Below, one piece after another: positions 30,199 to 51,319 of a stretch of 64,000 bases of DNA. A program made the translations under genes and the position numbers. Positions within the stretch are counted from its first letter, which is position 1; the number at the start of each line of letters is the position of its first letter. The notes beneath the pieces were generated by a model. It was not told where the DNA came from, searched no databases, and was given only the letters and a program-made list of their open reading frames with translations. Source of the DNA: Rhizobium nepotum 39/7 (GTDB lineage Bacteria; Pseudomonadota; Alphaproteobacteria; Rhizobiales; Rhizobiaceae); the NCBI RefSeq assembly GCF_000949865.1, contig NZ_JWJH01000007.1, positions 306,963 to 370,962 on the forward strand, in the 5' to 3' direction.

Positions 30199-31161
30199 AT
30201 GTCCGACAAGAAATATTATGATGCCCAGCTGGATAGAGCCCGGCAGTTGCAAAATGAAGGCCAATATGGGGAAGCGAGTGCGCTTCTCCTATCTCTGGTT
30301 GCAGTAAAAGACGGGCACCTGATGGGTGAGAGAACGGTTCTCGGCATGCCGCGCAGGCTGCATGCGGCGCGGCTGCGTCTCGCCAAGGCCGAAGGCGATA
30401 TGGTGGCGAAGATCGGCTATCAATATACCTTGGTTCCGCCACCACAGGTGCTGGCAAAATACGCACAATTTTCCCCGGAAGAACGCCGCGCGATCAACCT
30501 GAAAAGCAGGGAGGACGTGCCAAGGATCATTCATCAGATATGGATTGGGGAAAAAGCCCCGCCCGTGTCGGTTGAGGCCTGGGCCACCCATGCCGCCTCG
30601 CATGGTTATGAATATCGCTTCTGGCGGGAAGCCGATCTTGAGCAAGAGGGCGTATTTGCAAACGGCGTCTTCCGAACGATGCTGGACAAGGGCGATTATC
30701 CCGGCGCTGTCGATGTGGCCCGTTATATCGTGCTGGAGCGTTTTGGTGGCATCTATCTCGATTGCGACTGGTATCCGGCGCGGGACGATGTGAGTTTTGA
30801 TGCTTTCCTGCCATTGGCAGGGCTGACCGCGTTCGATGAACAGACCCCGCGCGATACCGGACAGGGCAGCATGCTTCTCGCCAACTCCTTCATCGCCGCC
30901 CCGGCTGGCCATCCGGTGTTCCGCAGGATGCTGGAGGCTTTTCCGGGGATCATCGAGGAGATGCCGCGTGCGCCCGCCTGGTGGTCGACCGGCCCGCTGA
31001 TCTTTACCGTCCTCGCCCGGGCTGGAAGCATCAGCCTCGCCCCGGCAGCGTTTGTTGCCGCGTCACTTGCCGATCGCGCGTCGTTTCAGGAGGTGGAGGC
31101 TGTCAGGCAGGAACTTGCCACTGGGACAGGTGGTTTGCTGATCGCCTGGAAATCATGGTGA
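30199..31161 (+). CDS. GT32-type glycosyltransferase (DXD sugar-binding)
   Basis: A 320-residue protein. After a helical N-terminal region (about residues 1-105), the GT32 core appears: RIIHQIWIGEKAPP, YEYRFWRE, then the donor/metal motif in GGIYLDCDWYP (DxD) near residue 193. Such enzymes transfer sugars in capsular or lipid-linked polysaccharide synthesis; donor unknown. Its stop region overlaps the 3' end of the convergent deacetylase gene by nine bases. It stands divergent from the peptide-type ABC operon. Confidence 0.82.
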   Translation: MSDKKYYDAQLDRARQLQNEGQYGEASALLLSLVAVKDGHLMGERTVLGMPRRLHAARLRLAKAEGDMVAKIGYQYTLVPPPQVLAKYAQFSPEERRAINLKSREDVPRIIHQIWIGEKAPPVSVEAWATHAASHGYEYRFWREADLEQEGVFANGVFRTMLDKGDYPGAVDVARYIVLERFGGIYLDCDWYPARDDVSFDAFLPLAGLTAFDEQTPRDTGQGSMLLANSFIAAPAGHPVFRRMLEAFPGIIEEMPRAPAWWSTGPLIFTVLARAGSISLAPAAFVAASLADRASFQEVEAVRQELATGTGGLLIAWKSW

Positions 31162-31896
31162 TACCTCAAGAATAAGGTCCGCCGAGGAACGCCAGCGGGC
31201 GGCGGGATGTTCAGTGGTCACCTCGAAAAGCCGTCTCAGAAAGCGCCAGACATTGTCGTCATGCACGAGATGATGGCTGAGGATGCCGGTCGTGCCACCG
31301 TCCTCCGCAGTCCGCAGGATGCGGGCGGCGGTCTCTGTGAAAAGGATGTCGTCATCGCGGCCGCCACGGCTGCCGTGCCAGTCGATCACGTCGACATGGG
31401 TATTCAGGCAAGGCGGTGCCGTCTCTTTCTCCGGACCGAAAACCGAAAGGGCGCGATATCCGAGGCCCGTCAACCCTTCCAGGATGCTGGCATCTATGCG
31501 GTTCCACGGCGGAACCAGCATGGGCACCAAACGCGCGCCATGCAGATCGTAGAGTTTTTCCAGCCCGGATTGCAACTCGTCGAGAACGATGGGCAGGTCG
31601 CGGTGCGCTCCGAGTTCCTGCTTCTTTTCTTTTTCTCTGGCATAATTCGTATGCGACCAGCCATGGACGGCGACTTGGGCAATGTCGGCCGTGTCCAGAT
31701 GCCGCGCGAGCTTGTCGGTCGTCGTCTCGGGAATGACCGCGAGCGTGACCGGAGCGGAAAAGCTGCCGCAAAGATCAAGCAGCGTGTCGAGTGCCGGTGT
31801 CGGCTCGACCGCATCGTCATCTCTCAGCCAGAGATCGGCCGTTACGCCGCGCCGTCCGCATTCGTCCAGTGCCGCAACGAGTTTCTCCAGACTCAT
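31153..31896 (-). CDS. Polysaccharide deacetylase family protein
   Basis: A 247-residue protein with NodB-like features: LWLRDDDAVEPTP with the acidic metal/base region near residues 23-30, PVTLAVIPE, and AVHGWSHTNYA with the HxxxH metal ligands near residue 80. C-terminal LSHHLVHDD could provide a further His. It probably removes N-acetyl groups from a surface polysaccharide. Start ATG overlaps the stop of the upstream GT4 gene by four bases, so the two are co-translated, which supports a role on the same glycan. Confidence 0.83.
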   Translation of the reverse strand: MSLEKLVAALDECGRRGVTADLWLRDDDAVEPTPALDTLLDLCGSFSAPVTLAVIPETTTDKLARHLDTADIAQVAVHGWSHTNYAREKEKKQELGAHRDLPIVLDELQSGLEKLYDLHGARLVPMLVPPWNRIDASILEGLTGLGYRALSVFGPEKETAPPCLNTHVDVIDWHGSRGGRDDDILFTETAARILRTAEDGGTTGILSHHLVHDDNVWRFLRRLFEVTTEHPAARWRSSADLILEVSP

Positions 31897-32990
31897 GATG
31901 TTCGTGCCTTTGCTTGTAACAGGATATGGTTCAGCTGTTTTGCGGCGTTTTCCAGAGATCGTTCATTCCTGACGAACTGGCGGGCCGCTTTCGCCAGTTC
32001 TTCACGCCGCCTGTCATCGCCGAGCAGCGTTTCAATTGCTGCGGCATAGGCGGCTGTATCATTTTCTGGTGTCAGTAATCCGGTGGTTCCGGATTTTACC
32101 ACTTCGGGAACGCCGGCCACCTCTTCGGCGACAACGGGAAGGGCAGCCGCCTGCGCTTCGAGATAGGCAAGACCATAGGCCTCGCCGTGCCCCGGCCAGA
32201 CATAAAGCGATGCCCTGGAAAGAAGCGTTGCGATCTCTGGTGCGGTTTTTTCACCGTGCCAGACGAGGCGGTGATCGGGAAAAGAGCTGAACATGGCCTG
32301 TACGGACGCACGTTCCGGCCCATCGCCGACGATATCAAGCGTCCAGTTCAGATCTTGCGGCAAGAGGGCAAGCGCTTGAGAGAGTGCGAGATAGCTGTCG
32401 AGCTTGTCGCCCGCCCGCATCATGGCGACGGTGATGAGTTTTCCGGGTGCGGAGCGGGGTGTGTTCTTGAGAAAGGCGTCGGCATCGATAAAGGGTGGCA
32501 ACATCGCCAGGTTGAGGCTTGGCGAGGCACGCGAAAGCCCCTCGCGGTCCCGCGCGGTGAAACAGATATTGACCGAGGCGGCGTTCAGTGCGGCCAGCAA
32601 TTCGTCCTGAACCGCCTGCCAGCCCATCCCATTGCGCTTGGGGGAATAGGACGCCTCGGCGGTGACATAGGGGATATCAAAACGTCCGCAAAGCTCCGGC
32701 CCGAGCAAATCCGGGGCCTTGTAATAGGGGTGATAACTAAACCAGAGGTCCGGCGCGCCCTGCCGCTGCCAGCGCTCAGTGATGGTTTCGATCTCGCGTT
32801 CGGCGGCATCGGCGAGCAAGCTGCGAGCCGGATCATCCGCCTGTTTCAGAAAGCTGCGCAGTTCGGAAGCGACGGAAACGTCGTGGTCGCCCATCGTCAT
32901 TGCCCGCATCAGCAGGCGGGCCATCAACCGGTCTCCGGAAGGAACGGGATGGTTGGGTGATTTGAGCGGCGAATAAAAGGCGATCTTCAT
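31893..32990 (-). CDS. GT4-family glycosyltransferase
   Basis: A 365-residue GT-B protein. The N-terminus MKIAFYSPLKSPNHPVPSGDRLMARLL is the usual acceptor-side Rossmann start, and the C-terminal GT4 domain has LDIVGDGPER, LVWHGEKT and the EAYGLAYLEAQAAALPVVA segment with the E-x7-E donor-binding glutamates. It heads a two-gene leftward unit with the deacetylase. It is divergent from the nucleotide-sugar dehydrogenase across 127 bases. Confidence 0.85.
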   Translation of the reverse strand: MKIAFYSPLKSPNHPVPSGDRLMARLLMRAMTMGDHDVSVASELRSFLKQADDPARSLLADAAEREIETITERWQRQGAPDLWFSYHPYYKAPDLLGPELCGRFDIPYVTAEASYSPKRNGMGWQAVQDELLAALNAASVNICFTARDREGLSRASPSLNLAMLPPFIDADAFLKNTPRSAPGKLITVAMMRAGDKLDSYLALSQALALLPQDLNWTLDIVGDGPERASVQAMFSSFPDHRLVWHGEKTAPEIATLLSRASLYVWPGHGEAYGLAYLEAQAAALPVVAEEVAGVPEVVKSGTTGLLTPENDTAAYAAAIETLLGDDRRREELAKAARQFVRNERSLENAAKQLNHILLQAKARTS

Positions 32991-33117
32991 GCCGACGGTT
33001 GTGCGTTGACGACTGTTCCGGCGTCAACCGGAATTTGAAAGGGCCAAGCCTTGACAGTCCGCCCATTCTTGCCCAACTGAAAGGCATCTTTTGCACATGC
33101 GCGGAGCGTGACACGCT

Positions 33118-34458
33118 TTGACTTCTCTAGTTGTCTCCCAGAAATTGCTTTCCAGTATCGAAAACAAGAACGCCAAAGCGGGCGTGATCGGCCTTGGCTA
33201 TGTCGGGCTGCCGCTCGCCATCACGGTCGCCAAGGCTGGCTTCAAGGTTGTCGGTTTCGACATCGACCCCGGCAAAATTACCGCGATCGATGCGGGCCGC
33301 AGTTATATCGAGGCGGTTTCGGACGAGGTGCTTTCAAGTGTCCGGTGCAATGACGGCTTCGTCGCCACCTCAGATTTTTCCAGACTGGCCGAATGCGATG
33401 TGATCGCCATTTGCGTGCCGACGCCTTTGACGAAATATCGCGAGCCGGACCTTTCCTATGTTGAAAAGACCTGTCGGGACATCGCCGCGCATCTGCGGCC
33501 AGGGCAGCTCGTGGTTCTGGAATCGACCACCTATCCCGGCACGACCGACGGGGTGGTGAAGACCATTCTGGAAAGTACCGGGCTCGTATCCGGCGCTGAT
33601 TTCTTCCTCGGCTTTTCGCCCGAGCGGGAAGATCCCGGCAATCGAGATTTCGAGACCTCGACCATTCCAAAGGTCGTCGCCGGCGATGGCGAGGCGGCGG
33701 GAAAACTGATGGCGGCCTTTTACGGTTCGGTGGTCGAGAAGATCGTTCCTGTCTCGACGAATGCCACGGCCGAGGCGGTGAAAATCACCGAAAACGTCTT
33801 CCGCGCCGTCAATATCGCGCTCGTCAACGAACTCAAGGTCGTCTACGAGGCCATGGGTATCGACATCTGGGAGGTGATCGACGCGGCTAAAACCAAACCG
33901 TTCGGTTTCATGCCGTTTTATCCCGGCCCCGGTCTCGGCGGCCATTGCATACCGATCGACCCGTTCTACCTCACCTGGAAATCGCGGGAGTATGAATTGC
34001 CGACGCGGTTCATCGAACTCGCAGGTGAAATCAACACCGGCATGCCGCGCCATGTCATCGGACGGGTGGCGGAAGCGCTCGACATCCATTCCGGCAAGGC
34101 GCTCAGCCGCTCGAAGGTGCTGGTCGTCGGTCTCGCCTACAAGAAAAATGTGCCGGATATTCGCGAAAGCCCCTCGCTGAAACTTATCGAGCTTATTCAC
34201 GAACGGGGCGGCCAAGCGGCCTATTTCGATCCTCACGTGGCCGAAATCCCGAAAACCCGGGAATACAGCCACCTGATGGGCATGAAATCCGTGGAATGGG
34301 ACCGGCAGACAATCGGCGCTTTCGACGCCGTTCTCGTAGCGACTGATCACGACAATGTGGACTATGCCGCACTTTGCGAGTGGTCACCGCTGATCATCGA
34401 CACGCGAAATGTCTTTGCGCGGCGGGACATTGCCGCAAAACACATCATCAAGGCCTGA
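33118..34458 (+). CDS. Nucleotide-sugar dehydrogenase (UDP-HexNAc type)
   Basis: A 446-residue UDP-sugar dehydrogenase: N-terminal NAD fold (GVIGLGYVGLPLAITVAKAGF), catalytic loop GPGLGGHCIPIDPFY with the active-site Cys, and C-terminal VLVVGLAYKKNVPDIRESPS. These features are those of WbpA/TviB-like enzymes that oxidise UDP-N-acetylhexosamines to uronic acids by two NAD-linked steps, rather than UDP-glucose dehydrogenases; the substrate choice is inferred. The start appears to be TTG at 33118, with GGAG about 12 bases upstream and no ATG that would keep the fold. It should supply a uronic acid donor for the nearby glycosyltransferases. Confidence 0.87.
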   Translation: MTSLVVSQKLLSSIENKNAKAGVIGLGYVGLPLAITVAKAGFKVVGFDIDPGKITAIDAGRSYIEAVSDEVLSSVRCNDGFVATSDFSRLAECDVIAICVPTPLTKYREPDLSYVEKTCRDIAAHLRPGQLVVLESTTYPGTTDGVVKTILESTGLVSGADFFLGFSPEREDPGNRDFETSTIPKVVAGDGEAAGKLMAAFYGSVVEKIVPVSTNATAEAVKITENVFRAVNIALVNELKVVYEAMGIDIWEVIDAAKTKPFGFMPFYPGPGLGGHCIPIDPFYLTWKSREYELPTRFIELAGEINTGMPRHVIGRVAEALDIHSGKALSRSKVLVVGLAYKKNVPDIRESPSLKLIELIHERGGQAAYFDPHVAEIPKTREYSHLMGMKSVEWDRQTIGAFDAVLVATDHDNVDYAALCEWSPLIIDTRNVFARRDIAAKHIIKA

Positions 34459-35012: not shown

Positions 35013-36707
35013 TTACAGATATCGTTCGCTCTCTTCCTTCGAGAGCAGGAAAACCTTCATTTGCGAGTTGCGCCCGCGAATGGCGATTTCTTCGCTGCGC
35101 AGATCGGCAATCTCCTGCCCCGCCTGAATGATGGCGGGTTCGGACACGACGATGGCCGCGCCGAATTCCTTGGCCTTGGTTTCCAGCCTGCTTGCCACGT
35201 TCACGGTGTCGCCTATGGCCGTCAGGGTTTTCGCCGCGCCATACCCCATGACGCCGACGATCGTCGGTCCGGCGTGAATTCCGACCACCACTTCCAGCCG
35301 CACGGCGAATTGTTTCTCCAGCCCTTCGTTCAGGATTGAAAGCTCCCGCAAGATGATTGCGGCCGCCCTCATGGCATTGCGGCAGGCATTTTCCGCGTTG
35401 TCGCCAAGCCCGAAGAGGGCCATGGCGCCGTCGCCGATAAATTTGTCGAGATGGCCGCCGGCCTGTTCGACGGCCTGGCCGACGATGGTGAAATAGCGGT
35501 TCAGAAGAAACACGACATCGTAAGGTAGCTTGGCTTCGGAAAGCGTGGTGAAATTGCGCAGATCGCAAAAGAGGATGGCGATTTCTTCTTCCTTGCCGGG
35601 TCGGGCCGGTTGCGCGTCCGTTGGCAGGTCGCTTTGCTGGGGTGGCGAGACGAGAAGCGCAATCTGAATATCGTGAGTGGGACGCAACTGACAACCGAGC
35701 CGCACGTCCGAATCGGCGTGGATGCGCCGTAACGTGGTTTGCTCGATGTCTCCGGGAGGCGGAAGCGTGCCATTGCTGCCGACGACCCTCACCCGACAGG
35801 TTGAACAGCGCCCTTTGCCGCCGCATACGGAATAATGCGGAATGCCTGCGAGCCTGCTGGCCTCCAGAATGCTGAGCCCGGCCGGGACACGCGCTTGCGC
35901 GCCATGTTCATAACGGATTTCGATGGCGGTTGATCTCTGCCGCCAGCTGCGTGCACCGCGCAATACGAAAACCAGCATTATCGCGCTCGCGAAAAGCGTC
36001 TCTGTCGCGCGGGTGATGAAGCGGATTTGCGTCTCCATCTCCCGTTGCAGCGGAATGTCGTCTCTTTGCACGAGGTTATCGACGAGCCCGGGAGGAAGCG
36101 CGTATTTTCTATCCACCTCCTCCAGCCAGCGGCCCGCATCGCTGAAACCCAGCAATGCCAAAAGCGGCAACATCACCGCCACCGTCATGAATATTCCGGC
36201 AATTCTCGGATACCAGTCCCGATAACGCAGCCAGAAATAGAGACCGATACATCCGTGGGTCCAGATGACAACCAAGGCGAGACTTTGCCACGCTCCTCCC
36301 ATGGGGCTGTTGATCCAGAGCCGGCGAACGACCGTGTAATAGCCCACGTCGATACCGTAGAGCATGTGCGAGACACGGATATTGACGGCATGGCTGATGA
36401 TCAGAAACGGGATCGACAGGCCGAAAATGACTTGAAGCGCCTCGCGAAGCGGCATGCGCAGCGTTCTGCGCTGATAAAGCGAACGCAGAACAAGACAGAC
36501 ATGCACGACAACCGAGCCGTAAAACAGCAGGCTGCTGACGGGATTGAGCCAGATCAGGCTGAACCATTTTCGTGCCCGTTCGGCAGTGTCGATGGAGATG
36601 AGCGCAAGGGAGTGATTGAAAAGATGGGAAAATACGAAAGCAAATATGATGAGGCCGGATAAAATCCGGGCGCGTCTCAGGTTGGTTTCCGAAAAGAAAC
36701 GGATCAT
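35013..36707 (-). CDS. Membrane-bound 2Fe-2S adenylate/guanylate cyclase
   Basis: A 564-residue three-part protein. Residues about 12-250 form five or six membrane helices carrying spaced histidines (H28, H69, H106, H151) that resemble haem-binding membrane subunits. Residues about 260-355 are a plant-type ferredoxin domain with C295, C301, C304 and C339. Residues about 373-560 are a class III cyclase with FCDLRNFT (D382), HLDKFIGDGAM (K422, D426) and NVASRLE. It should make cAMP or cGMP from the nucleoside triphosphate, perhaps in response to redox state; redox control is inferred from the domains. A cyclic-nucleotide-binding gene lies two genes upstream. Confidence 0.9.
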   Translation of the reverse strand: MIRFFSETNLRRARILSGLIIFAFVFSHLFNHSLALISIDTAERARKWFSLIWLNPVSSLLFYGSVVVHVCLVLRSLYQRRTLRMPLREALQVIFGLSIPFLIISHAVNIRVSHMLYGIDVGYYTVVRRLWINSPMGGAWQSLALVVIWTHGCIGLYFWLRYRDWYPRIAGIFMTVAVMLPLLALLGFSDAGRWLEEVDRKYALPPGLVDNLVQRDDIPLQREMETQIRFITRATETLFASAIMLVFVLRGARSWRQRSTAIEIRYEHGAQARVPAGLSILEASRLAGIPHYSVCGGKGRCSTCRVRVVGSNGTLPPPGDIEQTTLRRIHADSDVRLGCQLRPTHDIQIALLVSPPQQSDLPTDAQPARPGKEEEIAILFCDLRNFTTLSEAKLPYDVVFLLNRYFTIVGQAVEQAGGHLDKFIGDGAMALFGLGDNAENACRNAMRAAAIILRELSILNEGLEKQFAVRLEVVVGIHAGPTIVGVMGYGAAKTLTAIGDTVNVASRLETKAKEFGAAIVVSEPAIIQAGQEIADLRSEEIAIRGRNSQMKVFLLSKEESERYL

Positions 36708-36916: not shown

Positions 36917-37777
36917 TCAAAGTTCGATGATCTGGCCGTCCATGGCCGCGAATGCGCCGCTGAACTGGGCTTTCGCCTGTTTTTCGATGTTATCCAGTTC
37001 CTCGTCGCTGCGGCTTGGGGCGTGGTGGATGAAGCCGACATTTTTTGCGCCTGCCTGCTTGGCAAGACGGATCGCCTGTTGCCAGGAGGAATGACCGTAA
37101 CCGCGATAAAGGCTCATCTCGTCGTCGGTGAACATGGCGTCGTAGAGGAAGAGATCGACGTCCCTGATCAGGTCGAGCACGGTTTCATCGATGCTGCCCG
37201 GTTCGTGCTCGGTGTCGGTGATGATGGCGAGGGATTTTCCCTCCCAGTCCAGCCGGTATCCGACCGCATTGCCGGGATGATTGAGCATTCCGGTTCTGAT
37301 CGAGAGGCCCGGAAGAACATCGAGAGTGTCGCCCGGCATAAAGTCCCGTGTCGCGATTTTTGCGCAGCAAACTTCCAGCGGCACGGGGAACCATGGCGGG
37401 CTCATGAAATCCCTGAGCATTTCCCGTGTAGTCATGGTGCCGGCGAGGTGACCCGACCAGATGGCGACATCGTTGGAGCTGTTGTAGAAAGGCTTGAAAT
37501 AGGGAAAACCGACAATGTGGTCGTAATGGCAGTGGGAGAAAAACAGGTTTGCGCCGGTTATACCTTCCGCTCGCAACGCAAGGCCTGCAGGATGCAGCCC
37601 CGAACCCGCGTCGAACAAAAGAACATGATCTCCGCATCGTACCTCGATGCAGATGGTATTGCCGCCGTATTTTCGGAAGTTTTCACCTGAAACAGGAAGC
37701 GTTCCCCGCGCACCCCAGATTTTTACCCGAAAATTTCTATTACTTTCCCGACTTACTGTGTCGGAATCGAACGCCAT
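36917..37777 (-). CDS. Metallo-beta-lactamase-fold hydrolase
   Basis: A 286-residue MBL-fold protein. Near the N-terminus WGARGTLPVSG and YGGNTICIEV are typical of the PhnP/cyclic-phosphodiesterase-like branch; the metal motif is FFSHCHYDHIVG (HxHxDH), with later Asp in IITDTEHEPG and His in GYGHSSW and FIHHAPS. Substrate unknown. Position between a nucleotide cyclase and a cyclic-nucleotide-binding protein makes a cyclic-nucleotide phosphodiesterase role attractive, but this is inference. The ATG at 37777 has GGGGTG in front; the frame opens at 37795. Confidence 0.82.
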   Translation of the reverse strand: MAFDSDTVSRESNRNFRVKIWGARGTLPVSGENFRKYGGNTICIEVRCGDHVLLFDAGSGLHPAGLALRAEGITGANLFFSHCHYDHIVGFPYFKPFYNSSNDVAIWSGHLAGTMTTREMLRDFMSPPWFPVPLEVCCAKIATRDFMPGDTLDVLPGLSIRTGMLNHPGNAVGYRLDWEGKSLAIITDTEHEPGSIDETVLDLIRDVDLFLYDAMFTDDEMSLYRGYGHSSWQQAIRLAKQAGAKNVGFIHHAPSRSDEELDNIEKQAKAQFSGAFAAMDGQIIEL

Positions 37778-37967
37778 GACACACCCCAATAACAACGGAA
37801 TCTTGCACGCTTTCCTCCCATGAAGCCCGTTGTCTCTACAGTTTCTTATATCCGCTCTTTTTCTGGCGGACGCCCTTACCCTTATTCAGTCAGCATTTCA
37901 TTTATATTGCAATGGTGCGACATTTATTTTTCCAATATCGCCCTTCAAAGCAGCAAGAAATTGCGGC

Positions 37968-38423
37968 TCATGTTCTGGCGCTTGTGCGCGCTTTGCTTAG
38001 TTCCGTCGTCGTCTGGGTGAGACGTTCGGCGAGAACGCGCATGACCTTGATGGTGATGTCAGGGAAATCGGACATGAGCTTGAAGAACTGTTCCTTGCCG
38101 ATCCGCAGGGCTTCCACATTGGTGGAGGCGCGCACGGTCGCGGTCCTGACGCTATCACAGAGAATGGCGATTTCGCCGACAATCGCATTGCCGGTCATTT
38201 CGGCCACTCTTAGCGTGCCCGAGGGAGAATCGACCAGAACATCCACTTTTCCGGTCAGAAGGACATAGGCCGCATCGCCGACATCTCCCTGCCGGAACAG
38301 CACGTCGCCTGCGTGGTAGGACACCCGGTCGGACGCGAATGCGAGCAGTTTCAGCTTGGACGGCTCCATTTCCGAAAAAAACGGAACCCTTTTCAACATC
38401 TGAATTTCGTCTTTAAACAGCAT
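37968..38423 (-). CDS. Stand-alone cyclic-nucleotide-binding domain protein
   Basis: A 151-residue protein made of one CNB/Crp-N domain: FFSEMEPSKLKLLAFASDR, the GDVLFRQGDVGDAAYVLLTGKVDV beta roll, and a phosphate-binding cassette GEIAILCDSVRTATV with E84 and R93 conserved, followed by the C-helix. There is no HTH domain, so it is not a DNA-binding regulator; it more likely binds cNMP and controls a protein partner. It starts 43 bases after the stop of the degenerate ABC gene and is probably co-transcribed with it, which points to that protein as partner. Confidence 0.87.
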   Translation of the reverse strand: MLFKDEIQMLKRVPFFSEMEPSKLKLLAFASDRVSYHAGDVLFRQGDVGDAAYVLLTGKVDVLVDSPSGTLRVAEMTGNAIVGEIAILCDSVRTATVRASTNVEALRIGKEQFFKLMSDFPDITIKVMRVLAERLTQTTTELSKARTSART

Positions 38424-41514: not shown

Positions 41515-43350
41515 ATGATTGCAAGGTCAATGGCGATAGATATTTCAGAGCGTGCGAGTAGTGAACCTTCTCCAGATACGTTGTCGCTTTTCGGCGTTGC
41601 ATCGGATGGAGCGATTGCGCGTCCGGTTTCTTTTGAGGGGTGCACGGGTATTTTCCATCCGGCGCGCAAGGAGATCAAGCGGGATCATGCGGTTCTTTTC
41701 GTCAGTCCCTGGGGCATGGAGGAGTTGTGTAGCCGCAAGTTCCAGCGGGTTCTGGCTGAGCGGCTGGCCGCGTCCGGCGTCGCCAGCCTGCGGTTCGACT
41801 ATCATGGCGCAGGTGATGCACTCGATCCGGAAGACGTGGGCCGGACCGCGGACTGGCTTGCCGACACGCGGGCAGCATTCGATTATCTGAAGCGGCTTTC
41901 CGGTTGTTCCGGGGTGGTGGTCCTCGCCCAGGGACTCGGTTGCCCGATCGTCGTGCAGGCGCTTGCCGATGCGGCGGCTGCCGGTTCCATGGCGCTTCTG
42001 GCCCCCGTCGTCTCCGGCCGCGCCTATCTTCGCGAGCTGGCAATGTGGTCGTCCATGATCGACGACGGCCTTGGTCTTCGCCCCGGCCAGCGTATGGCGG
42101 AGGCGGGGGCAATTGCGGGCATGGCCATGCCGGCAAATGTTGCCGACGGGATCAAGAAGATCAATCTTGCAAATCTGGATGCCGCTCCAGCGCGCAACAT
42201 TCTGGTTCTGTCGAGACCGGGCCGGGTAACCGACAGCGATTTCGCCAAACGCCTCACCGCGATCGGTGTTGAGGTGGAAGAGGCGGAGTTTTCGGGTTAC
42301 GACGATCTCGTCTCCAGCCCGACGCTCTCGAAAATATCCGGCGATGTGGTGAACCGGCTTCATGACTGGGTCCTGTCGAAGACCAGTGCCGGGGATGCGG
42401 CGGGGCAACAGGAAGATTTTACCATCAATCCCCCGCAGCGCGGTCGCGGTTTTTTCGAGCAGCCGGTGCAGTTTGGTGAAGACGGGCGGCTTTTCGGAGT
42501 TTTCTGCGTGCCGGACGATCGGCAGGCGGTTTCTTCGGTCCTTCTTCTCGGCGCGGCTTACGACCGGCATGCGGGTTGGGGCAGGCTTTCCGTGCAGACG
42601 GCCCGCGCTCTTGCGCGTGGGGGCGTCGCCTCGCTCCGGTTCGACGCGGCCAATATCGCCGACAGTCCTCCCGTCGAAAACGCGCCCGATCAGGTCCTTT
42701 ACGATGTCGCACAGAATGACGACGTGGCCGCCGCGCTCGATTTTCTCGGCCGGCGCGGCAAAGGACCTTTCATTGCGGCGGGGCGGTGCAGCGGCGCCTA
42801 TCTTGCCTTCAACAGTGCGCTTGCCGACGACCGGATCAGCGCTGTGGTTGCGGTCAACCCGGTTGTCTTCCACTGGCGGAAAGGCCGCTCGGTCGATGAG
42901 GCGCTGCACAAACGACCGCGTTCCTTCGGAGAATACAGCCAGCGTTTTCGTCAGGGCGCCACATTCAAGCGTCTCCTCAGTGGTGATGTCGATGTGATGA
43001 GCGCCGGGCTGAACATCGCCAAGGCGACACTCAAAAAGCTTTCGACAAAAACGGCAAGGCTTTTCCGCAGCAGCAGCGAGGAAGGGCGTGCCGTCTACAG
43101 CGCTTTTGAAAAGTTGAAGGCAAAAGGTACAGCCATCAGCCTGCTCTATAGCGACAATGACGACGGGCTCGAACATTTCCAATATTATTTCGATACCGAT
43201 GGCAGGGGGCTATCAGCCTACCGGAATGTATCGCTGACGATTATTCCCGATGCCGATCACAATCTTTCGACGCCCGAAGCGAAAAGAGCCTATATCGATG
43301 CGGTGATGCGGCTGGCTCTAAAAGGAAAATCGCCGGCTGGAACCCAGTGA
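41515..43350 (+). CDS. Tandem alpha/beta hydrolase with predicted Cys nucleophile
   Basis: A 611-residue protein with two alpha/beta-hydrolase units. The first (about 55-290) has FDYHGAGDAL after strand 4, but its elbow is AQGLG with Gly140 where the nucleophile belongs, and no clear His. The second (about 320-610) has FDAANIADS, the elbow GRCSG with Cys425, an acidic residue near D547-D549 and His582 in PDADHNLS, so a Cys-Asp-His triad is complete. Such Cys enzymes act on thioesters or lactones. Start at 41515; 41530 is possible. The 3' end overlaps the convergent GH2 gene by 33 bases. A thioesterase or transferase role with the adjacent carrier system is inferred. Confidence 0.8.
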   Translation: MIARSMAIDISERASSEPSPDTLSLFGVASDGAIARPVSFEGCTGIFHPARKEIKRDHAVLFVSPWGMEELCSRKFQRVLAERLAASGVASLRFDYHGAGDALDPEDVGRTADWLADTRAAFDYLKRLSGCSGVVVLAQGLGCPIVVQALADAAAAGSMALLAPVVSGRAYLRELAMWSSMIDDGLGLRPGQRMAEAGAIAGMAMPANVADGIKKINLANLDAAPARNILVLSRPGRVTDSDFAKRLTAIGVEVEEAEFSGYDDLVSSPTLSKISGDVVNRLHDWVLSKTSAGDAAGQQEDFTINPPQRGRGFFEQPVQFGEDGRLFGVFCVPDDRQAVSSVLLLGAAYDRHAGWGRLSVQTARALARGGVASLRFDAANIADSPPVENAPDQVLYDVAQNDDVAAALDFLGRRGKGPFIAAGRCSGAYLAFNSALADDRISAVVAVNPVVFHWRKGRSVDEALHKRPRSFGEYSQRFRQGATFKRLLSGDVDVMSAGLNIAKATLKKLSTKTARLFRSSSEEGRAVYSAFEKLKAKGTAISLLYSDNDDGLEHFQYYFDTDGRGLSAYRNVSLTIIPDADHNLSTPEAKRAYIDAVMRLALKGKSPAGTQ

Positions 43351-45774
43351 CATCACATCGCCTGAAGGCGGCGTTTCGGGTGCCGCTGTCTCCGGCAGAA
43401 GGCTGATTTTTCTGGTCTCTCCGGGGACGAGATGGAACCAGTTTTCCGAGGCGCTGTAACCTTCCGCCGCGACATGAACCGATTGCGCCAGCCGGTCCGT
43501 ACCGATCTCTAGCGACCAGTTACCTTTTTCCTCGCTGACCCCCACCTGAAGATTGGCGGCGTGCAGCGCCTTTTTCCGGCCGAGTGGAAAATGGAATGCG
43601 TCAGCGATGACATGCCCGGTCGCAACCTCGCGAAGCCGGGCCACCGTCACATCATGGGATGGCGGGCCGAACCGGTAGGCATAGGTCGTATCGAAGAAAG
43701 CACCGAACAGCTCGGTTGCGGCAATTGTCTGGCCCTGTCGCGGCAAAAGCGTCAGCGGCCGTTTGGCGTGGACGACGGGCTGCGTGCCGTCACGCAGGCA
43801 GGTCAGTTCCAGCATGGTTTCCAGGCCGTCGCCGGTTTCGTTGACGAGATGAATGTCCAGCCCGTTGGTTCCTTCATCGGAAAGACTGACCTGTATCGGT
43901 CGAAACGCTCTTTTCAGCGCATGCCAGACCGATTTCGGCCTGCCGGTGGCATCGATGACGCCCCAGCCCGCGCCGGGAACGAGATCCTGCAGGGTCCAGA
44001 CCAATGCGCCCCGGCACGAGGAGGCGTCGCGACGCCATTCGGCGAAGGTCGCTTCCATGACCTCGGCGGTAACGGCTCGGGACATGTCGAGATAGAGGCC
44101 GCCATCCTCGCGTCGCAACACGTCCGGTTCGACGTCGTAAAGCAGCTCCAGATAATGGTCGCGAACATCCTCGAAATCCCAGGAGGCACCGCGATCGCGT
44201 GGCGTGCGGGCCTTCCATCGCGGATCGTGCGTCGCCAGTGCAGGGAGATATTTGTCCAGCGTTTCCTGTTCGGGAATATTGGCAAAGGCGAGGCATTCGG
44301 CGGCAAAGCGCACGTCGGCCCGGCGGGCATCTTCCAGCGGCCGGCAATAGGCGCCCACGCCATAATAATGGCCGATCCCGGCATTGGGGAAAAAGGGCAA
44401 TGTTCCACCCGAGGGGGAGTTTGCCACGTAGACCGCATCGGGCCGTTTCCCGGCCAGCACGTCCGGCAAAATGTCCTCGGTGAGCGTTCCTTTCCATATC
44501 TGTTCCGGCAGGCCGAGCATCGCGCCCTGCTGGTACATTTCGCTACCGCCGCAGAAAATGGCGAGCGAAGGCGAAAGAGCTGTCGCTTCGAGGAACTGCG
44601 AGATTTCCGTGACGATATGCTGCCGGAGGGCATCATCTTTTGCCGGATAATCGAAGTTGGCGAGCATGGCGTCCTGCCACACCATGATGCCGAGTTCGTC
44701 GCAAAGCGCGAAGAACTCCGGTGTCTCATAAGCCATGGTGCCACCGACGCGGATCATGTTCATGCCGGCTTCGGCAGCTTTTTTGAGCCATGGCTCATAG
44801 TCCGGTCTTGTTCCGGGCAGGCGCACGATGTCGGCTGTCGTCCAGGCCGCACCGCGACAGAAAACGGATTGCCCGTTTACCCTGAGGCCGAAACCGTTGC
44901 CATCTTCGCCATAGTCGATCTCCAGATTTCTGAAACCGGTGCGGCCGAGCCGATGTTGCTTACCGTCCAGTTCCAGGATGATTTCGTGCAGCGCCGGTCT
45001 GCCATGGGTGTGCGGCCACCAGGTCTCGACGCCGGGTATGTTGAGTTTGCCTGAGAGCTTGCCGTTTTCGTCCCTGGAAAGATCGGTGCTGTAGCCGGCG
45101 CAGGTAAGCCGCGCGGATTGGAGGTCTCGGCTTGTCTCGAGGGTGATGTTGACCGTTCCCGTGCCGGTTTCGTCGAGCGAGGACCGGGCCGTGCAAAGCA
45201 CGCTTTCCTGCCCTATCAGGCTGATGGGCCGCCATGGACCGCCAGGATGAATTTCCGGGCACCAGCCCGGCATATATCCGAGCGCCGAGGTGCGGATCAG
45301 CCGCAACCCCTGTGTGTTCATCATCTGCGGTCGCCAGCGGGCGCGGGGGCCGGTTTTTTCGAGCCTTGGCGAAAGCGCCCGGAAGCAGATCGACAGTTCG
45401 TCCGCGCCTGTCAGCTGGACTGGAACCTCCAGCCTCTCGAACATGCTCTGGCTGGCGGCGATCAGTTCGCCATTGAAGAAGATTTCCGCAATTGTCGACA
45501 GACCGTCGAAGCGCAGGATCGCCCGCTCCCGGGCATCGGAAATCATCGTCAGGCGATACCAGGCATCCCTGTCGTTAAGGGGTGTCGGATTGAAACGGTC
45601 GAATTTCCCGGCCAGTTCCAGGGCCTGCGCCACCGTGCCGGGAACGGATACGTGAAGGCTTTCAAGGGCTGCGGGAATATCGGAGGGCGTCTCGCAGGCA
45701 TCGGCCGGCGTCAATGTCAGCGTCCAGCCTTCGCTCAGCAACTTTTCGCTTTCGCCGGGAAGATAAGTCCTCAC
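43318..45774 (-). CDS. GH2-family glycosidase, beta-mannosidase-like
   Basis: An 818-residue protein with a GH2 layout: N-terminal sugar-binding beta domain (SVPGTVAQALEL, DAWYRL), immunoglobulin-like domain, then the barrel (FCRGAAWTTADI, MNMIRVGG, FFALCDELGIMVWQDAMLANF). The acid/base Glu is in CGGSEMYQQ and the nucleophile Glu is likely in FAAECLAF. This pattern suits exo-beta-mannosidases and relatives. No signal peptide is seen. GTG at 45774 is preferred because it overlaps the DUF1839 stop (GTGA) and starts the protein properly. As last gene of the carrier-protein operon it suggests that the pathway product or acceptor is a glycan or glycoside. Confidence 0.85.
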   Translation of the reverse strand: MRTYLPGESEKLLSEGWTLTLTPADACETPSDIPAALESLHVSVPGTVAQALELAGKFDRFNPTPLNDRDAWYRLTMISDARERAILRFDGLSTIAEIFFNGELIAASQSMFERLEVPVQLTGADELSICFRALSPRLEKTGPRARWRPQMMNTQGLRLIRTSALGYMPGWCPEIHPGGPWRPISLIGQESVLCTARSSLDETGTGTVNITLETSRDLQSARLTCAGYSTDLSRDENGKLSGKLNIPGVETWWPHTHGRPALHEIILELDGKQHRLGRTGFRNLEIDYGEDGNGFGLRVNGQSVFCRGAAWTTADIVRLPGTRPDYEPWLKKAAEAGMNMIRVGGTMAYETPEFFALCDELGIMVWQDAMLANFDYPAKDDALRQHIVTEISQFLEATALSPSLAIFCGGSEMYQQGAMLGLPEQIWKGTLTEDILPDVLAGKRPDAVYVANSPSGGTLPFFPNAGIGHYYGVGAYCRPLEDARRADVRFAAECLAFANIPEQETLDKYLPALATHDPRWKARTPRDRGASWDFEDVRDHYLELLYDVEPDVLRREDGGLYLDMSRAVTAEVMEATFAEWRRDASSCRGALVWTLQDLVPGAGWGVIDATGRPKSVWHALKRAFRPIQVSLSDEGTNGLDIHLVNETGDGLETMLELTCLRDGTQPVVHAKRPLTLLPRQGQTIAATELFGAFFDTTYAYRFGPPSHDVTVARLREVATGHVIADAFHFPLGRKKALHAANLQVGVSEEKGNWSLEIGTDRLAQSVHVAAEGYSASENWFHLVPGETRKISLLPETAAPETPPSGDVMSLGSSRRFSF

Positions 45775-46754
45775 GCGGCCTCGCTGGCGTTCGACAATTT
45801 TGCCGCAAGGGCGTCCATCACGCCATCCCATGCTTCCGCAGCCGGATCGAGCACGGAGGCGAGCGCATCGAACTTGCGGCGCGTGACGGCGCGGGCAAGC
45901 TGAAACTGCACGGTCTTGGCGACTTCGGATATGCGCAGCGCGTGGTCCCTGGCTTCAGAAAAACCGTCTTTATCCAGCCATTCGAGGTGGCTTGCCGCCA
46001 GCTCGAAATTGGCGCCGAGCTGGCGCAGCGTGTTGAAGGCATATTTATGGAAAAAGCCGAAGGGCCTGTCGGCGACCTTTTCCACCTGTGCCGGAAACAC
46101 GGCTGCAAAAGCCCTGACCGGGTTGGCGGACGGCCGTCTCGAAAAATGAAACTTCAGCAACCGTTCGGCCGTCTTGCGGATATGCGCCTGTGATGGATTG
46201 CCGTCTGCGAATTTCGCGAATTCCGTATAGGGCAGGAAGGGCGGATCGGTTTCCGCTAGATGATGCTGGAACAGGCCGTCAAAGTCTTTACCCGACAAAT
46301 GGAAGAAGCCGGCATTGTGGAAGTAGTCGAGTTCCCGGTTTGCCAGATCCAGTCGGTTGATGGCGATGGTGGTCTTGCCGTGCTCCTTCTGGTAGCCCAC
46401 CCCATGGGTATCGGGCATATGGAAGCTGTCCATCTCGATCAGGCAGATACGGCCGCGTTCCAGCTGGGCCTCGATGTGGTTTTCCACCCGATCGAAGATC
46501 GCAAGCTCCGTGGCGCGAACGCCATAGAGCGCTTCGAGATCCTCCAGCGGCACCTTGAAGAAGGTGAACTGGTCGCCCTCAAAATCCTGCGTCAGGGTAA
46601 AACCGAACATGGCTTCCGGCGGCAACCCTTTCGAGGCGAGTACCTCGATCCACAAATCGATGTAGCAATTGGTCTCCGGCCACATTCTGTCGGACGAATG
46701 GAGCGGATGCTGCACATAGTTTTTGGGATCGAGGCCCGGAAAAATCTGCCGCAT
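45771..46754 (-). CDS. DUF1839 protein, possible carrier-dependent acyltransferase
   Basis: A 327-residue protein I recognise as DUF1839. Near the N-terminus ETNCYIDLWIEVL places a Cys (C30) at the start of a helix, followed by GICLIEMDSFHMPDTHG-like text (RICLIEMDSFHMP, 102-114), KEHGKTTIAINRLD (H125) and YFHNAGFFHLSG. This Cys...His...Asp order is like BtrH/C39-type cysteine folds, some of which move acyl groups from carrier proteins to acceptors. That comparison is mine from pattern, not proven. It lies six bases after the ligase gene and overlaps the GH2 gene by four bases, so it should act on the product of the ligase/carrier step. Confidence 0.75.
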   Translation of the reverse strand: MRQIFPGLDPKNYVQHPLHSSDRMWPETNCYIDLWIEVLASKGLPPEAMFGFTLTQDFEGDQFTFFKVPLEDLEALYGVRATELAIFDRVENHIEAQLERGRICLIEMDSFHMPDTHGVGYQKEHGKTTIAINRLDLANRELDYFHNAGFFHLSGKDFDGLFQHHLAETDPPFLPYTEFAKFADGNPSQAHIRKTAERLLKFHFSRRPSANPVRAFAAVFPAQVEKVADRPFGFFHKYAFNTLRQLGANFELAASHLEWLDKDGFSEARDHALRISEVAKTVQFQLARAVTRRKFDALASVLDPAAEAWDGVMDALAAKLSNASEAA

Positions 46755-46760
46755 GAATGG

Positions 46761-47669
46761 TCAGCCCCAGAGCGTTTTCACAGCCTTCGCAGGCCATTTT
46801 TTCACATCCAGACCGTGATGCGCAAAGAGCGCCAGCGCAATGCGCTCAAGGCCGAAGCCGACGCAGGCGGTGTGCGCCACATCGCCATTGTCAAGGTTCA
46901 GGTCCCATTTCTGGCCGAAGGCGTCCTGATGGTAATTGAAACTCATGCAGGCCGTCGGGTTTGTGGCGGAGGTAACGGGGATCAGCAACTCGAACTTCAG
47001 ATTCTGATCGCGCTGATTGTTGGCGAGCATCTTGCCGGCGCGGCCGAAGAAGGGATCGTTGGCCACATCGATCGTCACCTCGAGGCCTACTGCTTCCATC
47101 ATCGCCACGCCGCGGTCCATCCATGTCTGGCGGAATTCGGTGACGTCGGTTTCAGTGCCCATGCGCACATATTCGCGCATGCGGAAAAGCTGCTGGCGCG
47201 CCGGATCCTTGGAGGGTTCATGGCGGAAACAATAGGACTGGATATCGTAGAGCCCTCCGCCGGCGGGCAGGGCGCCGCGTTTGGCAATCGTCGGGTAAAG
47301 CGGGTAACAGGCCGCCGGCGTCAGCACGATGTCGGTGGCTTTCTGGTCCTTGGTCCAGTCTTCGCCCTCATCCATGGATTTCAACAGACTCACATGATCG
47401 AGTTCGCAGCCGCAGAAGGAGTGGACCGTACCCGCCAGTTGCGGGAAGCTCTTCATGTAACCGCTCTTTTCAAAATAGGCGCGGTTGATGCCCGGCGGAA
47501 AACGGATCGCTTCGGCGCCGTCAGCGCCGCCCGTGCGGTCGATCAGCCGTTCGAATGCGGCAATCACGTCCTCGAACTGGCCGCTGCGCCCATAAAGACC
47601 ATCCACACCGGTTTCAATCAGTAGGCCTTCTTCGAACAGTCGATCGAGAAACGATGTTTGCATGTCCAT
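46761..47669 (-). CDS. Amino acid:[carrier protein] ligase (SerRS-like)
   Basis: A 302-residue class II aminoacyl-tRNA-synthetase-like catalytic domain without a tRNA-binding domain. Motif 2 is CFRHEPS...[10 protein letters not shown] (147-171), motif 3 is [12 protein letters not shown] (271-282). C121, E166 and C269 match the Cys-Glu-Cys zinc set of the archaeal-type SerRS homologues. Characterised members from Bradyrhizobium and Agrobacterium adenylate a small amino acid (glycine or alanine) and load it on the phosphopantetheine of a carrier protein, not on tRNA. The carrier gene is two genes upstream here. The amino acid used by this copy cannot be read from sequence. Confidence 0.93.
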
Positions 47670-47673
47670 GGTG

Positions 47674-48855
47674 TTATCCCAAAAGGCTGGTGTCCTGCCT
47701 GTGAACCAGCAGGAGATTGGCGGAATTGCCGAGAATTCGATCGTTGGAAATCATCAGGCGGGCGGAATGCGCGTCGCGAAGGTGCCGGCCAAGGCTATAG
47801 GGCGTACCGTTCTTGTAACCCATGATGCCGCAGATCAGCATGGCATGGTCGATGATCTCCAGAATGGTTTCCGAAGAGCAGATCTTCACATTGTTCATGG
47901 CGACCGCAAAGGCCATGGACATCAGCTTGTCCGGATCGCTCTTGGTATCCTCGTAAGCCTTGATGCCGGCGATGATGTTGGATTTGACCACCTGCAACTT
48001 GGTGGAAACTTCGGCAAGACGAATCGCGCCGGGTGGAGCGACGCCGGGCGACTTGCGTGCCGCTGTTCTCACGAAGGACTGGGCGCGCAGCACGGCGTCG
48101 GACGCGATGCCGTACCAGACGGCGCTCCACAGGAGATGGGAGCTTGCAAGCATGGATTGCGCCGCGATTTCCGCAAATGGTTTGGGGAAGATTTGCGCGG
48201 CCGGTGCCTCGCCGCGGAACAGGAAGCCGTCCGAACACGTGCCACGCATGCCGAGCGTGTCCCAGATATGGGTTTTTTCGAGCGTATATTGATTTTTGAG
48301 GAATACGGTCATCACCTGATCGGCGGGCGCGGCGTCCTTGTGGGCGCGCGAGGTGATGAGAATGGCATCCGCATTGCTGCCGTAGGAAATGACGGTAGCG
48401 TCCTTTTCCAGCCGGCAGAAATCGCCTTCGACTTCGATCGCGCAGATGGAGTTGCGCAGATTGCCGCCGATACCGCCTTCGGTGGTGGCCGAGCCGAGCA
48501 GAAGCTGTTCGTTGGCGATGCGGCTCATGAAACCCGCATGCCATGCGCTCGCCTCGCCATGTTCCACAAGGCTGGAGGCCTTGATGTGGTGCATGGCGAA
48601 AATCATTGCCGTTGCCGAACAGGCCTGGCCAAGCCGGGCGCAGATATCGGCGATTTGCTGTATGGATGCGCCTTCGCCGCCAAGGGAGGACGGGACCTGA
48701 ATGCCGAGAAGGCGCTCTTGTCTCAGCGCCTTGACGGCTTCCTCGGGGAAGCGACCGGTGACATCCACCTCATCCGTGTGTTTGGCTGCAATTGCCGCGA
48801 CACGGCCTGCGCGCGCGGACAGCGTTTCATCCTGCGGCGCTACTGTCACATTCAT
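47674..48855 (-). CDS. Acyl-CoA dehydrogenase-like flavoprotein
   Basis: A 393-residue protein with the acyl-CoA dehydrogenase layout: helical N-terminal domain with [25 protein letters not shown], middle beta domain with [13 protein letters not shown] (flavin/substrate region) and [13 protein letters not shown], and helical C-terminus with [29 protein letters not shown]. In carrier-protein pathways such enzymes oxidise aminoacyl-S-carrier substrates (for example prolyl to pyrrolyl). Here its start overlaps the carrier stop by one base and the ligase gene begins four bases after it, so oxidation of the loaded amino acid is the natural inference. Confidence 0.87.
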
Positions 48856-49106
48856 CAGGCTGCCTCTTTACCATCCAGAATGAGCTTAACGGTGTCTTCA
48901 ATGGCCTTGATGCTTGCAAAGGACTTACGGTTCAAGAGGTTGTCCGGGAATTCGATATCGAAAGCTTCCTCGATACCCAGCATCAATTGCACCGAAGCAA
49001 AGGAAGAAAGGCCTGCCGCATAAAGATCCGCTTCATTTGCAATCGTATCGACAGGGGTTGGAAGCTGGCCGAATTTTGCCAGTATTTCACGAATAGTCGC
49101 ATTCAT
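48855..49106 (-). CDS. Phosphopantetheine carrier protein
   Basis: An 83-residue acyl/peptidyl-carrier-like protein. The modification site is AGLSSFASVQLM, with Ser35 as the likely phosphopantetheine attachment residue in place of the usual DSL serine; the following acidic helix (LGIEEAFDIEFPDNLL) is typical of helix 2-3 of carriers. It opens the five-gene leftward operon carrier, dehydrogenase, ligase, DUF1839, GH2, all packed with overlaps or gaps under ten bases. It would hold the amino acid as thioester through the pathway. No 4'-phosphopantetheinyl transferase is in the window. Confidence 0.9.
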   Translation of the reverse strand: MNATIREILAKFGQLPTPVDTIANEADLYAAGLSSFASVQLMLGIEEAFDIEFPDNLLNRKSFASIKAIEDTVKLILDGKEAA

Positions 49107-49296
49107 TCCGACGTATCTCCCACGAATTTCACATCAGGATGGTCTATGCTTATCGTTACGTTGCAAACGATAATATTCGCCTAAACCATTAGGTTAATTA
49201 CAACTAACGGCAGCATGCGCCATCCGCGCATCTTTGCCAAGAGTTCATGGGCGCTCTTGACAAATGTCGGGCGGTGTTTTTTGCTGTGGCCATTCA

Positions 49297-51319
<2,023 letters not shown>

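Follow-up and report, generated by a model that had tools for sequence, protein, structure and literature searches.

The question raised by this locus is what becomes of an amino acid once a seryl-tRNA synthetase (SerRS)-like ligase has loaded it onto a dedicated carrier protein. In Rhizobium nepotum 39/7, such a ligase is encoded in a five-gene cassette at positions 43318–49106 of the 64,000-nucleotide (nt) stretch analyzed here (contig NZ_JWJH01000007.1, positions 306,963 to 370,962; hereafter, the window), in the order carrier protein, flavoprotein of the acyl-CoA dehydrogenase fold, SerRS-like amino acid:[carrier protein] ligase, DUF1839 protein and GH2 glycosidase. A sequence-only reading of the window had proposed that these proteins load an amino acid, oxidize it, transfer it by way of DUF1839 and process a glycan or glycoside. 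All five open reading frames (ORFs) were found on the minus strand in the order that it gave, and their family assignments were borne out by profile matches (Table 1). Our analysis suggests that the cassette takes a small amino acid borne by the carrier and joins it, through an amide bond, to the amino group of a sugar destined for a surface polysaccharide or glycolipid. We give this reading an even chance. In its favor are the strict linkage of the genes, the separate branch formed by DUF1839-linked ligases, the CcbD-like predicted fold of DUF1839, the conserved residues, the glycan context and agreement with a published prediction.

The cassette is real and widespread, and it has already been noticed in print. 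A note added in proof by Iyer et al. 2010 lists a neighborhood of a carrier, a redox enzyme, the uncharacterized ORF Atu2574, a glycosidase and liposaccharide genes, and predicts that Atu2574 joins the amino acid by an amide to a cell-surface amino sugar, with the redox enzyme modifying the amino acid, probably by monooxygenation (PMC2922099). Atu2574 probably corresponds to DUF1839, as judged by gene order from Atu2571; indeed, the Protein Data Bank (PDB) entry named Atu2571, 2jq4, matches the cassette carrier at nearly the same score as the PDB 4h2w carrier does. Gene order and the identity of the carrier at 82 of 83 residues (see below) make the set orthologous to that of Iyer et al., and the ligase, redox enzyme and ORF are given the same roles. 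The view of the sequence-only reading that the later steps were undescribed was thus wrong, as both the neighborhood and the amide ligation had been predicted (PMC2922099) and DUF1839 appears in a 2023 survey (PMC10318531). A limited literature search found no experimental test of the cassette. What is new here, relative to the 2010 note, is the CcbD-like fold of the Atu2574 family, the residue analysis showing the missing base of the redox enzyme, the linkage counts, an extra fused hydrolase and paired DUF1839 copies.

Linkage of the cassette genes

Similarity to DUF1839 identified at least 582 places, and the best 80 of these, which come mostly from close relatives, were compared as loci. 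The nearest DUF1839 relatives are in Agrobacterium records (92–95% identity), a few of them named Rhizobium rhizogenes, which marks the host as related to Agrobacterium. The order carrier, flavoprotein, ligase, DUF1839, GH2 on one strand is present at 78 of the 80 loci. One exception is a 4,953-base contig (L045) in which no carrier was recognized before the flavoprotein gene; the other (L044; 6,451 bases) contains the ligase, DUF1839 and a piece of GH2, with carrier and flavoprotein unrecognized despite 3.7 kb of sequence before the ligase. GH2, if the piece in L044 is counted, lies beside DUF1839 in all 80.

The linkage holds at wider scales. In an order-level sample of 397 genomes, drawn evenly, DUF1839 was found in 65, and in all 65 a ligase gene lies upstream on the same strand at a distance of 30–454 nt (model coordinates). 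The ligase itself is over its cut-off in 88 of the 397, including 23 genomes without DUF1839. A phylum-level sample of 299 genomes contained DUF1839 in 12, every one of them with the ligase, which was over cut-off in 21 genomes and represented by weak relatives below cut-off in 16 more. The five genes also recur together in annotated plasmid records of Azospirillum, Mycetohabitans, Rhizobium and Caballeronia; there are five such records, and four of them have the hydrolase gene alongside. Chance clustering is therefore rejected, and the neighborhood survey that the sequence-only reading had suggested leaves its grouping standing, the ligase accompanying DUF1839 in every genome of the order-level sample and the carrier and flavoprotein doing so at all but two of the 80 loci.

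Directly upstream of the carrier, many Rhizobium loci encode EF-P together with a radical-SAM enzyme and an EpmA-like ligase (for example, L019:4444-7277). The clusters of EF-P, EpmA-like and radical-SAM genes, whose representatives were identified, occur in 47, 38 and 30 of 90 loci, respectively; we considered them as cassette parts, rejected this and take them as neighbors only.

The ligase and its carrier

The ligase matches PDB 4h2w_A, a Bll0957-type chain, with an E value of 1.4e-95. Its match to the 518-position SerRS profile is confined to positions 311–503, so that the ligase keeps the catalytic core of SerRS and lacks its N-terminal tRNA-binding domain. Carrier loading with Gly or Ala has been reported for this SerRS-like family (PMC2922099, PMC9437257). 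The Bradyrhizobium Bll0957 ligases (PDB 4h2w, 3mey) belong to the same family, and entries 4h2w–4h2y pair Bll0957 with a carrier that, counted in the alignment, is identical to the cassette carrier at 82 of 83 residues. Ser35 of the carrier is kept in 89 of 89 aligned rows.

In a tree of 28 ligases, the 12 that are linked to DUF1839 fall on one side of a branch with support 99/97, apart from nine without DUF1839, a group that is itself weakly supported (70/84); long-branch warnings were given for distant rows. In the regions around nine of the ligases without DUF1839, the flavoprotein is adjacent to the ligase in nine, a carrier-like ORF is present in seven and a homologue of DUF1839 or GH2 in none. 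The Bll0957-like ligases L134–L142 differ from the cassette ligase in the same respects, as they lie beside a flavoprotein but have neither DUF1839 nor GH2, and they fall outside the branch of DUF1839-linked ligases (Bll0957 itself is not among the tree rows). A replacement transferase was sought beside the ligases without DUF1839 and was not found; the neighbors are mixed and include a TRAP-type binding protein, an alpha/beta hydrolase, a cupin, an aminotransferase, methionine genes and three ORFs without a Pfam match. Still more distant SerRS-like ligases, below the family cut-off (L143–L149), occur in other families of the phylum with no cassette genes nearby.

DUF1839 is predicted to resemble an amide synthase

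The AlphaFold model of DUF1839, built from 24 sequences, has a predicted local distance difference test (pLDDT) score of 87.0. Comparison with solved structures places it closest to CcbD (Z 19.3 over 287 residues, 3.6 Å, 10% identity), followed by the AziU2–U3 complex (Z 18.1) and CtaG (Z up to 17.6). The structure search returned 14 rows at Z 15.4–19.3, which extend from residues 6–15 to residues 320–327, and the next row falls to Z 6.9. Foldseek gave the same three proteins in its first 19 rows, with E values from 5.5e-08 (AziU2–U3) to 6.6e-03 (the weakest CcbD chain). We take CtaG and AziU2–U3, in part from their entry titles, to be papain-like carrier-dependent acyltransferases, a group that also includes CcbD and BtrH. 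Because sequence searches miss the relationship, the link to CcbD rests on the predicted model.

In the lincosamide synthetase CcbC/CcbZ-CP/CcbD, carrier-bound proline moves onto the CcbD Cys and is then attacked by the amino group of an amino sugar, a thiooctose, with both CcbD monomers contributing sugar-binding residues (PMC12945683). The cassette, by its predicted fold, may share this logic of carrier loading followed by a papain-like enzyme that joins the aminoacyl group to an amino sugar. However, it has a SerRS-like ligase in place of a nonribosomal peptide synthetase adenylation domain, an intervening flavoprotein, the GH2 and hydrolase genes, a setting that is likely one of polysaccharide synthesis and a proposed triad unlike that of CcbD, and it is not a member of that pathway.

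Cys30, placed near the N-terminus like the nucleophile of papain-like acyltransferases, and Thr128 are each kept in 90 of 91 rows, and His146 in 91 of 91, in keeping with the swapped Cys-Thr/Ser-His triad proposed in the 2023 survey, where DUF1839 is counted among papain-like proteins and a part in processing glycans at the cell wall is suggested for it (PMC10318531); His125 is likewise invariant (91 of 91). Several genomes carry two DUF1839 copies. The one deviating row comes from genome G255, where the cassette copy (L125) has Arg30 and Ala128; Cys30 and Thr128 are both present in the other copy, which lies on a separate contig (L124). In Cupriavidus metallidurans CH34 (L158) and Cupriavidus campinensis (L161), the cassette copy has Arg30 and Ser128, and a second copy with Cys30 lies a few kilobases away. 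His125 and His146 are kept in all 12 rows of the two-copy comparison. Among plasmid records, six hold two DUF1839 places, and two of these (H87, H91) were examined. As both monomers of CcbD take part in sugar binding, one possible reading is that a Cys-less DUF1839 subunit pairs with an active one.

In two genomes, DUF1839 is split over two frames (G484:C1:2515620-2516545 and G636:C1:1766007-1766916), by a frameshift or an assembly error.

The flavoprotein lacks the usual catalytic glutamate

The flavoprotein model (pLDDT 87.4) clearly adopts the acyl-CoA dehydrogenase fold, with a top Z of 40.7 to PDB 2jif over 362 residues. Sequence similarity brings in DnmZ, grouped with DszC and KijD3 as monooxygenases or N-oxygenases of this fold, which is the second match of the single flavoprotein and the fourth of the flavoprotein profile. 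In the register given by the alignment to PDB 3pfd, the position of the usual catalytic Glu, which we take to equal Glu376 of MCAD, is occupied by Ile369 in all 98 rows. The alternative Glu site of isovaleryl-CoA dehydrogenase, presumably its residue 254 and placed here by the adjoining G-I-A motif, corresponds to position 239, which is Ser in 90 rows, Ala in six, Cys in one and Thr in one, and never Glu. His240 is invariant (98 of 98).

The sequence-only reading had supposed that alanine might be oxidized to a dehydro form. A precedent is CaeB1, which dehydrogenates carrier-bound cysteine; with ColB1 (PDB 7xp7), it shares the fold of the cassette flavoprotein and, as we suppose, a carrier-bound amino acid substrate, but its proposed base, Glu372, corresponds to the invariant Ile (PMC8149447). 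Because Glu is replaced by Ile369 and is lacking at position 239, ordinary α,β-dehydrogenation is unlikely, and the alanine route is left without support. We rejected it as the default, although another residue could serve as base. Oxidation at nitrogen or across Cα–N would fit better and would suit glycine, because glycine has no β carbon. Some amine oxidases oxidize across Cα–N without a carboxylate base.

The glycosidase and the fused hydrolase

The solved chains nearest to GH2 are β-mannosidases (PDB 5n6u, E value 6.9e-44). Alignment to 5n6u and 2vjx identifies Glu431 and Glu512, which we take to be the catalytic pair; both are kept in 89 of 90 rows, with a gap in the other one, and the motif at Glu431 deviates, with G-G-S-E in place of G-N-N-E. 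No signal peptide was obvious by eye, so GH2 likely acts in the cytoplasm.

A sixth gene, which the sequence-only list had lacked, encodes a fused double alpha/beta hydrolase, convergent with GH2 and overlapping its end by 33 nt. One exosortase-A-associated hydrolase profile matches each half (TIGR03100 and TIGR03101). In contrast to the proteins that those profiles describe, the two units are fused in one protein, which falls below both cut-offs (Table 1). In the second domain, Cys425 of a G-x-C-x-G motif is present in 54 of 54 rows; the nucleophile position of the first domain is Gln in 50 of 54.

Glycan context and proposed pathway

Neighboring genes support a link between the cassette and glycans. 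In C. metallidurans, an undecaprenyl-phosphate-type sugar transferase (Bac_transf) is encoded directly upstream of the carrier, with Wzc, GT87 and ManC nearby, all exopolysaccharide genes. The second DUF1839 gene of G255 adjoins ManC, glycosyltransferases and a hydrolase homologue. A GT4-like glycosyltransferase follows GH2 in 21 of 90 loci, with the hydrolase next in 20 of these (two representatives were checked against Pfam). At locus L127, the GH2 and hydrolase genes are separated by one for a polysaccharide deacetylase, an enzyme that could unmask an amino sugar, and a weak flippase match adjoins it. Of the steps in the sequence-only reading, loading is thus supported by the family membership of the putative ligase, transfer by the resemblance of the DUF1839 model to CcbD, which makes an amide on an amino sugar from a carrier-bound substrate, and the glycan link by the gene context in C. 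metallidurans, beside the GT4-like genes and at L127.

Within the window itself, ORFs at 30199-34458 resemble, by eye, glycosyltransferases, a polysaccharide deacetylase and a UDP-glucose dehydrogenase, and are possibly the cassette's own glycan genes.

The pathway that we propose would begin with adenylation of Gly or Ala by the ligase and loading of the carrier phosphopantetheine, a reaction shown in print for the ligase family (PMC2922099, PMC9437257). The flavoprotein would then oxidize the loaded aminoacyl group, probably at nitrogen or across Cα–N, as it lacks the Glu for ordinary α,β-dehydrogenation. In the third step, suggested by the fold, Cys30 of DUF1839 would take the acyl group and pass it on to an amino sugar, in the way that CcbD joins proline to a thiooctose. 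The last roles are the most conjectural: GH2 might trim or recycle a glycoside intermediate, and the Cys-type fused hydrolase might edit or release mis-loaded groups bound to the carrier. A bolder version, which we regard as speculative and unlikely in its full form, would define a new class of aminoacyl-glycan synthetases in which a base-less flavoprotein oxidizes carrier-bound Gly or Ala at nitrogen or across Cα–N, leaving an imine, oxime, N-hydroxy or glyoxylyl group, and papain-like amidation of a surface amino sugar gives the polymer reactive or metal-binding groups, with Cupriavidus-type pairs of active and Cys-less DUF1839.

Weighing the amide reading against its alternatives

Several observations weigh against amide formation on a surface sugar. 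The DUF1839 profile, searched by sequence against structure chains, found one chain at E up to 10, and that one unrelated; DUF1839 had no match to BtrH_N (PF14399), only PF08893 being found; and a profile comparison with nine BtrH_N proteins was not significant (probability 3.4%), although its local alignment pairs Cys30 with the BtrH Cys. PF14399 likewise has no match in the host's own genome. The catalytic sets differ, being Cys-His-Glu in CcbD (PMC12945683) and the proposed Cys-Thr/Ser-His in DUF1839 (PMC10318531), and in all three two-copy genomes examined, it is the cassette copy that lacks Cys30. For the flavoprotein, the fold search does not separate dehydrogenases (Z 39–41) from monooxygenases, the scores lying within ~2 Z of one another (PDB 5z8t, 40.3; the cysteine dehydrogenase ColB1, 39.8; DszC, 39.5; the nitrososynthase-type KijD3, 38.9). 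The fused hydrolase was recognized within 9 kb at 46 of the 80 loci, and its orientation is not constant: of 52 cases, it shares the GH2 strand in 30 and lies on the opposite one in 22. The nine flavoprotein–ligase loci without DUF1839 and GH2 mean that loading and oxidation have a use without transfer. Finally, we infer the acceptor from neighbors that differ between lineages; several loci have no obvious polysaccharide genes nearby, and one (L159) has no glycan genes within 15 kb on either side.

These last loci bear on the alternative that survives best, namely that the product is a small diffusible aminoacyl-glycoside, such as a lincosamide-like metabolite, signal or metal binder, with GH2 stripping the sugar from a precursor. 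CcbD, which stands nearest to DUF1839 in mechanism, belongs to an antibiotic pathway, and L159 lies next to a TonB-dependent receptor and an ABC/RND export set. However, the exopolysaccharide genes of C. metallidurans, the glycosyltransferase genes that adjoin the cassette at 21 of 90 loci and the liposaccharide genes reported by Iyer et al. 2010 (PMC2922099) argue for a surface product, and we consider a diffusible one unlikely.

The aminoacyl group could instead be esterified to a hydroxyl of a surface glycan or lipid, much as happens in teichoic acid D-alanylation or lipid A glycinylation. The Dlt and Alm systems likewise consist of a loading enzyme, a carrier and a transferase, and the cassette carrier scores 25.6 bits against the DltC profile, which is below its cut-off. 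The DUF1839 fold, however, matches an amide-forming enzyme, DUF1839 shows no Pfam resemblance to DltB or AlmG, and no membrane-bound acyltransferase was found in the cassette, so that an ester appears improbable, more so than a diffusible product.

It is less probable still that DUF1839 and the hydrolase are thioesterases that free the oxidized amino acid, with GH2 having a separate function and being cotranscribed by chance. The nine fetched loci in which flavoprotein and ligase occur without DUF1839 suggest that oxidation may be its own end, and the invariant Cys of the hydrolase motif would suit a thioesterase. Opposed to this are the full-length resemblance of DUF1839 to a transferase and the presence of GH2, whole or in part, beside it at each of the 80 loci.

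Least probable, by a little, is the dehydroalanyl product of the sequence-only reading (or a pyruvyl group after hydrolysis), transferred after α,β-dehydrogenation of the alanyl-carrier: CaeB1 and ColB1 show that this fold can dehydrogenate carrier-tethered cysteine (PMC8149447), but the Ile at the CaeB1 base position, the residues at position 239 and the lack of a β carbon in glycine, a known substrate of the ligase family, all stand against it.

Gene layout and neighboring features

The sequence-only reading described the genes as tightly packed, with overlaps or gaps under 10 bases, and the spacing agrees: carrier and flavoprotein overlap by 1 nt, and gaps of 4 and 6 nt separate flavoprotein from ligase and ligase from DUF1839. 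The overlap of DUF1839 and GH2 is 61 nt if the first GH2 start codon (longest ORF) is used; an alternative start 57 nt later would reduce it to 4 nt, as in several relatives. A scan for promoters and terminators gave nothing above shuffled sequence (3 vs. a mean of 2.2; 9 vs. a mean of 7.3).

Table 1. Features of the window and, in the last rows, paired DUF1839 copies at other loci
Feature	Coordinates	Strand	Matches
Carrier protein, 83 residues, phosphopantetheine Ser35, orthologue of Atu2571	48855..49106	-	PF00550 3e-07; PRK07081 121.3 bits (cut-off 72)
Flavoprotein, acyl-CoA-dehydrogenase fold, 393 residues, without the usual catalytic Glu	47674..48855	-	PF02771 (N domain), PF00441 (C domain)
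SerRS-like amino acid:[carrier protein] ligase, 302 residues	46761..47669	-	NF005479 509.8 bits (cut-off 357)
DUF1839, 327 residues, predicted papain-like aminoacyl transferase	45771..46754	-	PF08893 440.9 bits (cut-off 22.5)
GH2 beta-mannosidase-like glycosidase, 837 residues as longest ORF	43318..45831	-	PF22666, PF17753
Fused double alpha/beta hydrolase, 611 residues	41515..43350	+	TIGR03100 90.1 bits (cut-off 168.45), TIGR03101 62.9 bits (cut-off 202.75)
Thiamine pyrophosphate riboswitch	49289..49400	+	73.3 bits (gathering 54.3)
thiC ORF, divergent	49385..51319		
MsbA-like ABC protein, 905 residues	38467..41184	-	
Other ORFs of the ABC protein group	37968..38423; 36917..37795; 35013..36707	-	
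Paired DUF1839 copies, C. metallidurans CH34	L158:14755-15951 and 19726-20709		
Paired DUF1839 copies, C. campinensis	L161:11668-12969 and 20391-21371		
Paired DUF1839 copies, G255	L124 and L125		

The thiamine pyrophosphate riboswitch was rejected as a cassette part, as it sits at the start of thiC. On the other side of the cassette, the MsbA-like ABC protein has long insertions around its ATPase part and adjoins a cyclic nucleotide monophosphate-binding protein; metallo-beta-lactamase-like and adenylate-cyclase-like ORFs, recognized by eye only, follow these genes.

Implications

The proposed pathway would give a role in the cell to the SerRS-like amino acid:[carrier protein] ligases, which were described in 2010. 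DUF1839 would tie these ligases to a known kind of carrier-to-amino-sugar chemistry, which makes the pathway testable biochemically with five proteins. If it is correct, many plant-associated and soil Pseudomonadota would put an oxidized amino acid on a surface sugar, a modification that glycan analyses may have missed.

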